Under the pieces are notes generated by a model. The model was not told where the DNA came from. It saw only the letters and a list, made by a program, of their open reading frames with translations, and did no database searches. Positions 13,988 through 17,071 of a DNA stretch of 50,970 nt are shown here, in pieces (position 1 is the first letter of the stretch; each line of letters starts with the position of its first letter). The stretch is from Candidatus Pelagibacter communis. Its GTDB lineage: Bacteria > Pseudomonadota > Alphaproteobacteria > Pelagibacterales > Pelagibacteraceae. Both the position numbers and the translations under genes were made by a program. The stretch is taken from contig NZ_CVSG01000079.1 of the NCBI RefSeq assembly GCF_001179945.1, forward strand, positions 1 to 50,970. The letters are read 5' to 3'.

Positions 13988-14980
13988 CTATAAATATTTG
14001 CTTACTAATTTTTCAAATAGTTTAATATGTTCCGAATTATCATTTAAGCAAGGAATTAAATCAAAATTTTTACCACCTTTTTCAATAAAGCTTTCTCTTC
14101 CTTGGATGTTTATTTCCTCTAAGGTTTCAACACAATCAGAAGCAAAACCAGGACAAATCACTAGTAAATTTTTTATTCCTTTTTCCGGTAATTTTTCTAT
14201 AGTTTTATCCGTGTAAGGCGTAAGCCATTCTTGTGGGCCGAATCTTGATTGAAAAGTTGTCTGGATTTCAACTTTGTTAAACTTTTCTTTCATTAGTCTC
14301 GTTGTTTTATGACAATAGCAGTGATACGGGTCTCCCTTGTCAAAATAAGATTTAGGAATTCCATGATAAGAAGAAATTATCAAGTCAGGTTTCCAATTAA
14401 TTTCACTAATTTTTTTTTCAATACTAACAATCAAAGCATCGATGTATGAAGGATTGCTCTCATAGTGTGGTATTATCTGTAGACTTGGTTGCCATCTCAT
14501 CTTCATTAATGATCTGTAAATTTCATCACAAACAGTAGCAGTTGTTGCTGCAGCGTATTGGGGGTAAAGAGGTAAAGCTATTATATTTTCACAACCTTTA
14601 TCTCTCATTGTAACCAGCTTAGATTTTATACTTGGATTCCCATATCTCATTGCAAAATCTACTATTATATTTTCATTTCCTATTTTTTTTTTTAATTTCT
14701 GAGATTGTTGTTTTGTAAAATATAATAATGGGGACTCGTTGCTTTCCTTTCTCCAAATTTTTTTATACGCGTGCGCAGTTTTAGAAGGTCGAAAAGTAAG
14801 AATAAATAAATTTAAAATAATTTGCCAGATTATTGGATTAACTTCTATAACTCTTCTATCAGATAAAAATTCTTTTAAATATTTCCTTATATCCCACCAA
14901 CCAGTTGAATCTGGTGTTCCAAGGTTAATAATTAAAACTCCAGTTTTACCAAATTGAACTTCTGGGTGATTTTTATCCAT
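13988..14980 (-). CDS. hemH: Ferrochelatase
   Basis: Inserts Fe2+ into protoporphyrin IX, the last step of haem synthesis. The 330-residue protein shows GVLIINLGTPDS at the N-terminus, FAMRYGNPSI, PLYPQYAAATTATVCDEI, and the catalytic SYHGIPKSYFDKGDPYHCYCH with the active-site His. It ends with PGFASDCVETLEEI, containing the conserved Glu. It overlaps hemE by 8 bp and is followed by hemJ after one base, so the three haem genes are translationally linked. Confidence 0.97.
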   Translation of the reverse strand: MDKNHPEVQFGKTGVLIINLGTPDSTGWWDIRKYLKEFLSDRRVIEVNPIIWQIILNLFILTFRPSKTAHAYKKIWRKESNESPLLYFTKQQSQKLKKKIGNENIIVDFAMRYGNPSIKSKLVTMRDKGCENIIALPLYPQYAAATTATVCDEIYRSLMKMRWQPSLQIIPHYESNPSYIDALIVSIEKKISEINWKPDLIISSYHGIPKSYFDKGDPYHCYCHKTTRLMKEKFNKVEIQTTFQSRFGPQEWLTPYTDKTIEKLPEKGIKNLLVICPGFASDCVETLEEINIQGRESFIEKGGKNFDLIPCLNDNSEHIKLFEKLVSKYL

Positions 14981-15980
14981 TAAATTTCCTATAAAATTTT
15001 ATTAATCTACTTACTTTATCAGGATCTGTTTCAGGAAGTAACCCGTGACCTAAATTGAAAACATAAGGAATACCCTTAAATGTTTGAATATATTTAGTCG
15101 CCCCCCTAATAATATCTTCGTCAGCTTTTAGTAATATATTGGGATTTAGACCTCCTTGAATAACTACATTTTTTAACTTTTCTCTAGCCCAAACGGGGTC
15201 AATTTCTGGATCTATATTAATTCCATCTGGTTTCACAATTTTATTAAAATCCTCATATTTTTCTTTTATTCCTTTAGGGAAACAAATGGTAGGTATTTTT
15301 TGTTTTCTACAAAAATTTAAAATTTTTTCATTAGGCATGAAACAATATTCACTTAAATTCTCTTTGGGAATTAAGCCTGCCCAAGAATCAAAAACTTGTA
15401 TTACATCTGCTCCAGCGTTTATTTGATTTTTTATATGAATGCATAAAAAGTTAATCAAAATTTCTATTATTTGATTAAGTAATTTTTTATCATGAAGCTT
15501 TAGTAAATTTAGTTCTCCTTGGCTCTTTTTCAAGTTCAACATATAAAATATTAGGGTCCATGGTGCCCCAATAAAAGAAATGAGCGACTTACTTTTTGTT
15601 AATTTTTTTCTCGTAATATCTATTGCTTTATAAATTGGGCTAAGTTTGTTTGAAAAATCATTTTCTTCGATCTTCAAAAATTCATTTAAATTAAAATCAC
15701 CAAGTTTTGGTCCAAAACCTTTTGTAAATCTTACATCTTGTCCTAATGCATATGGCACCATTAAAATATCAGAAAAAATGATTGCTGAGTCTAAATCAAA
15801 TCTTTTAATTGGTTGTAATGTAATTTCAGAGCTCAACTCACTATTTAGGCATAATTTGATAAAATCTTGGTTTTTAGATCTAATTTTTTTAAACTCTGGA
15901 AGATACCTACCCGCTTGTCTCATAAACCAAATAGATTTACAATTGGTTTTATTTAGTAAGATCTTATTAAGATTGCTCAT
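14973..15980 (-). CDS. hemE: Uroporphyrinogen decarboxylase
   Basis: Decarboxylates uroporphyrinogen III to coproporphyrinogen III in the cytoplasm. The 335-residue protein carries WFMRQAGRYLPEF with the substrate-binding Arg residues, IIFSDILMVPYALG (catalytic Asp), FIGAPWTL, VIQVFDSWAG, and NLGHGLLPETDP. First gene of hemE-hemH-hemJ-(rho). It is read away from the AT-rich spacer 15981-16252, which has the layout of the alphaproteobacterial chromosome origin. No strong ribosome binding site is evident before the ATG. Confidence 0.97.
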   Translation of the reverse strand: MSNLNKILLNKTNCKSIWFMRQAGRYLPEFKKIRSKNQDFIKLCLNSELSSEITLQPIKRFDLDSAIIFSDILMVPYALGQDVRFTKGFGPKLGDFNLNEFLKIEENDFSNKLSPIYKAIDITRKKLTKSKSLISFIGAPWTLIFYMLNLKKSQGELNLLKLHDKKLLNQIIEILINFLCIHIKNQINAGADVIQVFDSWAGLIPKENLSEYCFMPNEKILNFCRKQKIPTICFPKGIKEKYEDFNKIVKPDGINIDPEIDPVWAREKLKNVVIQGGLNPNILLKADEDIIRGATKYIQTFKGIPYVFNLGHGLLPETDPDKVSRLIKFYRKFNG

Positions 15981-16252
15981 ATTATATAAAAGTTTTTTAA
16001 AAGTATTGTTTGGGTAATTGGCCCTGTTTAATAGACATATAACTATTTATACAATTTTTATACATAGAAAGATGTATAACTTTTATCAAAAAATGATATT
16101 TTGAAGACTTTATTATTCTTATAAACATTAGTAAAACAACATTATCAACATCTAATAAAATGTTTAAATATTGTTAATTAATGTTAATTTTTTTTACCCT
16201 TATAAATCAAAAAGTGAACAAGTTTATTTATTAATTATTTATCAACATATAT
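15981..16252. other. Candidate chromosomal replication origin (oriC)
   Basis: A 272-bp non-coding, extremely AT-rich spacer between divergent hemE and the PPSR gene. This is the same neighbourhood (hemE / RP001-type gene) as the origins of Caulobacter and Rickettsia. DnaA-box-like sites against TTATCCACA: TTATCAACA at 16142-16150 and 16239-16247 (one mismatch each), an inverted pair TTATACAT/ATGTATAA at 16058-16065 and 16072-16079, and TTATCAAAA at 16083-16091. TTAA units recur exactly every 10 bp at 16164, 16174 and 16184, inside TGTT(T)AA repeats, and could be a duplex-unwinding element. Position is strong evidence; the boxes are supportive only. Confidence 0.7.
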
Positions 16253-17071
16253 ATGAACCAAAAATACAATGTATATCTTGTGTCTGATTCTACCGGTGAA
16301 ACCTTAGATAGGATATTTCTTTCTCTTAAATCGCAATTCTCTAACTTTGAATATGAAAAAAAAGAGTTTGCTTTCGTTAGAACTGGACAACAGATAGATA
16401 AAATAATTAAAGAGTGTGTGGAACAAGAAAACTCATTAATTTTATATACAATAGTAGAAACTAAACTGGCAAAATATATTGCAAATCAAGCTGAAAAGAA
16501 CAACGTTCCATGTTTCGGCATTCTAGGTAATCTTATTCTAAGTTTTTCAAAATTGCTTAATCAAAAAGCAATTCATAAACCTAGTGCACAACACGTATTA
16601 GATGATGATTATTATAAACGTATTGAAGCTATTCAATTCACTATGTCACATGACGATGGAAAGAAAGTAGATGATGTAAATGATGCAGATGTAATTTTGT
16701 TAGGTGTAAGCAGAACTAGTAAAACACCTACCTCCATCTATTTAGCTAACAGGGGATACAAAACTATTAATATACCTCTAGTGCTAGACCAAAGAATACC
16801 ACCGAACTTAACATCTGAAACAAAGGCATGCGTTATCGGTCTTGTAGCAGACCCTGAGCGATTAGCTGATATTAGACGAAATAGAGTTGCTATCATGAAA
16901 GAAAATCAGATTAAAGATTACACAAATTTAGACTTTATTAGAAAAGAGGTAAATGACTCAAAAAACCTTTTTAAAAAAAACAACTGGCCAATAATAGATG
17001 TAACAAGAAGATCTGTTGAAGAAACAGCTGCATCTATTTTAAAAATAATAGAAATAAAAAAACATACATGA
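16253..17071 (+). CDS. Pyruvate, phosphate dikinase regulatory protein (PPSR/DUF299, RP001-type)
   Basis: A 272-residue bifunctional kinase/phosphorylase of the DUF299 family, which controls pyruvate phosphate dikinase or PEP synthase by ADP-dependent phosphorylation. It shows YLVSDSTGETLDRIF at the N-terminus, the P-loop-like GVSRTSKTPTSIYLANRG, and GLVADPERLADIRRNR. Which target enzyme it acts on cannot be told from this window. It is the first gene right of the candidate origin and overlaps maf by 4 bp, starting a PPSR-maf-aroE-coaE-dnaQ run. The last DnaA-like box ends 5 bp before its ATG. Confidence 0.93.
   Translation: MNQKYNVYLVSDSTGETLDRIFLSLKSQFSNFEYEKKEFAFVRTGQQIDKIIKECVEQENSLILYTIVETKLAKYIANQAEKNNVPCFGILGNLILSFSKLLNQKAIHKPSAQHVLDDDYYKRIEAIQFTMSHDDGKKVDDVNDADVILLGVSRTSKTPTSIYLANRGYKTINIPLVLDQRIPPNLTSETKACVIGLVADPERLADIRRNRVAIMKENQIKDYTNLDFIRKEVNDSKNLFKKNNWPIIDVTRRSVEETAASILKIIEIKKHT

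Follow-up and report, generated by a model that had tools for sequence, protein, structure and literature searches.

An AT-rich spacer between hemE and a PPSR gene as the probable chromosome origin of a SAR11 bacterium

SAR11 bacteria rank among the most numerous cells of the ocean. The DNA analyzed here (the window, a stretch of 50,970 nucleotides) is one contig (G000:C79) of a SAR11 assembly that comprises 681 kb in 101 contigs and is 59% complete. Its largest gap separates the divergent genes for hemE and for a kinase/pyrophosphorylase (PPSR), the latter of the COG1806/RP001 type, a name taken in part from PMC1914354. Gaps were ranked after greedy selection of 58 ORFs, each 60 amino acids or longer, and the next-largest ones measure 191, 185, and 172 bp. 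The GC content of the spacer is 17.3%, compared with 30.5% for the whole window, and only 40 of 50,699 windows of equal size have a lower value. The preliminary description of this DNA, which had singled out an AT-rich, divergent 272-bp spacer between these genes and called it the largest non-coding gap, is thus confirmed on both points.

Because the assembly is only 59% complete, we used relatives for the tests of origin function. Eighty of them were found via PPSR in named genomes, and nearly all are labeled Pelagibacteraceae, Pelagibacterales, or Pelagibacter (SAR11); one, L064 (PBGQ01000002.1), carries the label Rickettsiales. The hemE of L064 is 36% and its adjoining PPSR 80% identical to the window's proteins, and in all other loci of the set the identity to the window's hemE is at least 51%.

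Table 1. Features of the hemE-PPSR region, with positions in the window; box roles, tract, and melting point are predicted from sequence.
Feature	Sequence	Position	Strand	Remarks
hemE, uroporphyrinogen decarboxylase, flanking		14973..15980	-	PF01208 (URO-D), 5.9e-84
Intergenic spacer, proposed oriC		15981..16252	none	Largest gap in the window, 272 bp
AT-rich end adjoining hemE, proposed first melting point		15981..16000	none	Predicted from sequence
DnaA-trio-like tract after R1		16001..16020	-	Degenerate in the window, 1 of 5 strict triplets
Box R1	TATTAAACA	16025..16033	-	ACA end in 80/80 rows; faces the trio-like tract
Box F1	ATTTATACA	16045..16053	+	ACA end in 89% of 80 rows; first of a tandem pair
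Box F2	TTTTATACA	16056..16064	+	ACA end in 95% of 80 rows; identical in 45/80
Box F3	TTATAAACA	16119..16127	+	Identical in 56/79 rows
Box F4	TTATCAACA	16142..16150	+	Consensus TTATTAACA in 33/80 rows, TTATCAACA in 12/80; first of the two boxes named earlier
Possible ninth box R0	ATTTAAACA	16161..16169	-	TGTT at 16161-16164, each at least 90% conserved
Box R2	TAATTAACA	16172..16180	-	Identical in 53/80 rows; ACA end in all
Box R3	AAATTAACA	16182..16190	-	ACA end in 99% of 80 rows; 10 bp from R2
Box F5	TTATCAACA	16239..16247	+	Consensus TTATTAACA identical in 52/80 rows; ACA end in all
Kinase/pyrophosphorylase (PPSR), flanking		16253..17071	+	PF03618 (Kinase-PPPase), 2.2e-91

A sequence scan found every motif of the preliminary description where it had been placed. 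Across both strands of the 51 kb, TTATCAACA was found only at 16142 and 16239, TTATACAT lies at 16058 with its reverse complement at 16072 and a 6-base spacer between them, TTATCAAAA lies at 16083, and TTAA is present at 16164, 16174, and 16184, as well as at 16178. Although both TTATCAACA boxes are present in the window, this exact form is rare in the relatives, with at least one copy in 12 of 79 spacers and two copies in only one of the 79. Similarly, the head-to-head pair does have its 6-base spacer, but its arm ATGTATAA shows no conservation across the 16 aligned rows inspected, and the TTAA units, correctly located and described as phased, turn out to be parts of reversed TGTTAA-type boxes (R0, R2, and R3). 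CtrA was considered as the cause of the TTAA spacing and rejected for the window, where that spacing is TTAA-N6-TTAA.

Within the window, 3 of the 17 TTATNNACA sites fall inside the spacer, which makes up 0.5% of the sequence, and the spacer holds three matches to a box matrix, a count reached in 8 of 500 dinucleotide shuffles, which average 0.42. Enrichment in the window by itself is thus moderate, and the weight of the box evidence rests on the relatives. DnaA-type boxes cluster more densely than elsewhere in the window, and likewise in what was sampled of G078, G040, and G005, the spacer being the sole maximum of TTATNNACA density in the window and G005 and a joint maximum in G078 and G040, but not in G177, where the spacer is not the densest TTATNNACA stretch. 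Near dnaA, the scan for box clusters covered only the sampled stretches of this density comparison.

Alignment of the 80 spacers points to at least eight conserved positions that resemble DnaA boxes. The rows are close relatives, mostly from the window's genus, with exceptions such as L071, which has the coordinates of G151 and belongs to genus g2. Eight boxes (R1, F1, F2, F3, F4, R2, R3, and F5) stand out, with a mean column identity of 0.898 inside them versus 0.681 in the rest of the same spacer, so that the comparison across SAR11 genomes that had been set as a check finds the box positions conserved. The forms conserved among the relatives are TTAT(T/C/A)AACA and TTTTATACA rather than exact TTATCAACA, and F2 takes in TTATACAT minus its last base.

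Elements of the same layout recur in other genera. TTATTCACA stands at the place matching R1 in five other-genus spacers (L165-L169), F1 and F2 form a tandem 11 bp apart and TTAT-type tandem boxes are equally 11 bp apart in L171, L172, and L173, and a reversed box lies at -92 to -94 from PPSR in L161 and L164-L172. This last box varies among other genera, where it reads TTATTAACA, TTATAAACA, TTATTCACA, or, in one case, perfect TTATCCACA, a variation that ties the motif to the canonical DnaA box. Judged by its position, R0 is possibly homologous to the reversed box found at about -93 in the other genera. With a box matrix built solely from F3-F5 of close relatives, 9 of 15 other-genus spacers gave a match count that none of 100 shuffles reached (16 were scored, and L161, which belongs to the window's genus as G177 and has the coordinates of L079 in the alignment, was left out). 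On the protein side, RDHTT, a DNA-contact motif, is kept in domain IV of DnaA in all six SAR11 DnaA proteins.

The hemE end of the spacer, overlooked in the preliminary description, holds the reversed box R1, a 4-nt gap, and then a three-base repeat that resembles a DnaA-trio. In the relatives, reading from R1 along the minus strand toward hemE, the 4-nt gap is followed by triplets (CTA and TTA, for instance) in a fixed register, and the AT-rich end lies past this repeat. Strict triplets at +4 nt averaged 2.04 of 5 versus 0.46 in shuffles (the highest of 500 being 0.645) for 107 of 110 spacers, a score to be read with the register having been spotted on the very data later scored and the anchor having been picked by box score rather than by trios; two spacers without an anchor and one that was too short were left out, and a few genomes occur twice. 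By offset, the triplet score was 1.47-2.04 at +1, +4, +7, and +10 and 0.17-0.77 at the other eight offsets tested, and three consecutive NTN triplets occur at the +4 register in 26 of the 107 spacers. By eye, each of the 12 spacers from the sister family f2 combines a CACA-type box with a similar tract and, in the AT-rich end, a TATATA run. Two of the 12 (L242 and L244) carry CTACTACTACTA at the hemE end. The tract is weak in the window and its closest relatives. The basal unwinding system (BUS), as characterized in PMC8287927, has a DnaA-box followed within 16 nt by at least three trios with a middle A; at the +4 register, the only one tested, the NTN strand of the window contains no such run.

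The gap itself persists even where one of its flanking genes is missing. All 79 measurable close relatives have a divergent hemE across a gap of 263-283 bp (80 loci were sought, and L007 ends too early to measure), and among a further 30 loci, mostly from other genera, 28 have a divergent hemE across 261-292 bp, with hemE absent within the 1.5 kb examined in the remaining two, L175 and L176. No match to PPSR was found in any of 30 genomes of family f2; in the 12 examined (L241-L252), hemE faces maf over a gap of 268-284 bp, and exact TTATNNACA is present in only 5 of these 12 spacers. Conversely, in both single-contig g9 genomes (G009 and G022) hemE does not adjoin PPSR, the best hemE match, which may be a replacement gene, lies hundreds of kilobases off and is 31% identical to that of the window, and the 300 bp upstream of PPSR carry three and four box matches, respectively.

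These observations bear on the possibility that the spacer is an ordinary divergent promoter for hemE and PPSR, with the motifs serving as regulator sites, perhaps for DnaA acting as a transcription factor, and the origin located elsewhere nearby. The promoters of both genes must indeed lie in the spacer, and box F5, the second of the boxes named earlier, is located at the PPSR start codon, ending 5 bases ahead of it. Other gaps in these genomes are also as well conserved in length and sequence. The spacer as a whole has no conservation advantage over three nearby gaps, which scored 0.78-0.94 per column versus 0.73-0.74 for the spacer, and the first control gap, usable in 5 of 80 loci, was the better conserved (0.920 versus 0.858 over 6 rows). 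Because control gaps are equally or better conserved, we dropped whole-gap conservation as an argument and kept the comparison of boxes with the rest of the spacer. Against a promoter alone stand the gap of like length that remains without PPSR in 12 of 12 f2 genomes, the box matches that persist without hemE in both g9 genomes, and the chromosome-wide strand switch that falls near the spacer. Since the gap outlives either neighboring gene, the spacer appears to be more than a plain promoter region, and we regard the promoter explanation as improbable.

On the scale of the chromosome, six genomes from four genera show a switch in both strand asymmetry and gene orientation no more than tens of kilobases from the locus. 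In three chromosomes of three other genera, sampled all round by 20-kb stretches, cumulative GC skew reaches its minimum 0-60 kb from PPSR and its maximum at roughly half a chromosome's distance. A skew minimum at the spacer had been suggested as a test; the minimum does lie near the locus in these three chromosomes, but in G177 the raw cumulative skew curve bottoms out ∼140 kb from the spacer, and the local skew of the window has several rises and falls with no window-wide minimum at 16.1 kb. At the locus, strand-corrected GC3 skew reverses its sign in G078 and G005 and gives a noisy profile in G040, and likelihood profiles place the GC3 switch 10, 35, and 5 kb from PPSR in G078, G040, and G005, respectively, with 5-95% bootstrap ranges that run from -80 to 55 kb for G078 and from -123 to 295 kb for G040. 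For the window's own genus, the pooled data (G177, G124, and G150, 200-400 kb each) put the switch at -10 kb (GC3) and +10 kb (TA3), the spacer itself lying 3.8 (GC3) and 5.2 (TA3) lnL units below the best points. Fitted by itself, G124 places the switch at -55 kb (GC3) or +20 kb (TA3). Given these offsets, skew resolves the origin only to tens of kilobases and not to the spacer.

A rival placement is an origin at dnaA, as in many bacteria, with the spacer serving as a secondary DnaA-binding region; dnaA lies only 63-72 kb from the locus in the four genomes where it was located (G078, G040, G005, and G177), and GC3 in G040 slightly favors it. Gene orientation, however, gives a higher likelihood to PPSR than to dnaA in all three genomes compared (G078, G040, and G005), as does GC3 in two of the three (G078 and G005), and in the pooled fit of the window's genus a point 70 kb off on the dnaA side of G177 falls 27.1 (GC3) and 24.9 (TA3) lnL units below the best. 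Furthermore, dnaA lies on the opposite side of PPSR in G005 compared with G078 and G040, yet the switch stays near PPSR. We therefore consider an origin at dnaA very improbable. Least credible of all, to the point that we give it scarcely any weight, is that the motifs arose mostly by chance in a stretch of 17% GC with only gene order conserved, for although 8 of 500 shuffles reach the box count of the window alone, conservation is much higher in the box columns than in the remainder of the spacer, the trio register is fixed, and boxes recur at like distances in other genera.

The direction of the skew differs between genera. In G177, G124, and G150 (loci L221-L240 and L253-L272), GC3 skew is higher on lagging-strand genes in 6 of 6 arms, whereas the other three genomes, from three other SAR11 genera, have the opposite direction in 6 of 6 arms; TA3 skew runs in one direction in all 12 arms of the six genomes. 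The window itself is too short to decide, its right arm fitting the inversion and its left arm having no difference. This inversion of strand-corrected GC skew in the window's genus makes the GC-skew test suggested earlier unreliable there and is a caution for GC-skew-based origin finding, an approach that was used for a Pelagibacter MAG in PMC9516812.

The strand switch, the conserved boxes, and the survival of the gap after loss of a neighbor in relatives support the origin function first proposed for this spacer, which is very probably the DnaA-dependent chromosome origin (oriC) of this SAR11 bacterium. The box positions, the repeat in the relatives, the strand and orientation switch near the locus, and the persistence of the gap were computed directly, and we infer that the window's own genome behaves like its relatives. 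In such an origin, DnaA would bind eight or nine AT-shifted boxes of the TTATNAACA and TTTTATACA types, arranged in a set order, and R1, near hemE, would direct a DnaA filament onto the adjacent three-base repeat. The AT-rich DNA by hemE may then open, the helicase would be loaded, and forks would leave in both directions. We are evenly divided on a broader generalization, that SAR11 has a pared-down, DnaA-only origin in which AT-shifted boxes in a fixed eight- or nine-box layout take the place of strong canonical ones and a single box with degenerate trios by hemE forms the unwinding element, free of CtrA and IHF control and outliving either neighbor, and that leading-strand GC3 skew has reversed its sign in the window's genus. 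If it is true, origin finders and growth-rate tools that rely on skew may put the origin in the wrong place in this genus. Naming the boxes opens initiation to in vitro tests with SAR11 DnaA, a precise origin provides a fixed point for estimating growth from peak-to-trough ratios in metagenomes, and the layout illustrates how origins of Alphaproteobacteria may function in the absence of CtrA. Among the matches listed, we found no paper on the SAR11 origin by locus, and DoriC may list one.

In PMC1914354, the origins of Caulobacter and Rickettsia are placed between hemE and the COG1806 gene, an address that the preliminary description had claimed for this spacer and that holds, since it is flanked by both hemE and COG1806 (PPSR). 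The spacer resembles Caulobacter crescentus Cori and the Rickettsia origin, as presented there, in this gap, in an AT content above the average (here that of the window), and in several sites like DnaA boxes. It is shorter, at 272 bp compared with the >400 bp stated there for Caulobacter and Rickettsia, and, unlike what is set out there for those origins in terms of TTATNCACA, IHF, and TTAA-N7-TTAA, it has no exact match to any of the three. The consensus DnaA box TTATNCACA is absent from the spacer and from the whole window; in its place are the conserved AT-shifted boxes, with canonical forms in some other genera. Over the 80 loci L002-L081 (1.48 Mb), TTATNCACA was seen 24 times against 60 expected under a third-order model, and 21 times with the spacers masked. 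The box may be avoided in the group, a claim that we withhold because the loci are orthologous and the counts therefore not independent.

The window's spacer likewise has no IHF site (WATCAN5WTR), which was found in 32 of 110 spacers versus 39.5 in shuffles, and no CtrA site (TTAA-N7-TTAA), which was found in 55 of 110 versus 19.5. No CtrA protein scored above the curated cut-off of one Rhodobacterales-named model in 11 of 11 genomes, and Pelagibacter has no ctrA orthologue according to PMC2877005. Because neither the sites nor CtrA was found, we file the spacer as a DnaA-type origin at the alphaproteobacterial hemE address rather than a CtrA-regulated one.

The nearest parallel for the hemE end is BUS, in the form described in PMC8287927: alike are the oriented box, the 4-nt gap, and the fixed-register repeat of the relatives, together with CTACTACTACTA in 2 of 12 f2 spacers, whereas the repeat is degenerate here and falls short of three trios in the window. 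By this analogy the window's tract may work like a BUS, a statement of likeness rather than of membership. Turning to the neighboring genes, the window keeps PPSR, and the new neighbor in f2 is maf, not COG1253, which distinguishes these loci from Wolbachia and the Anaplasmataceae as presented in PMC1914354. The likeness to that group is that a flanking gene may be lost while the origin stays by hemE, and that some of its members have few CtrA sites.
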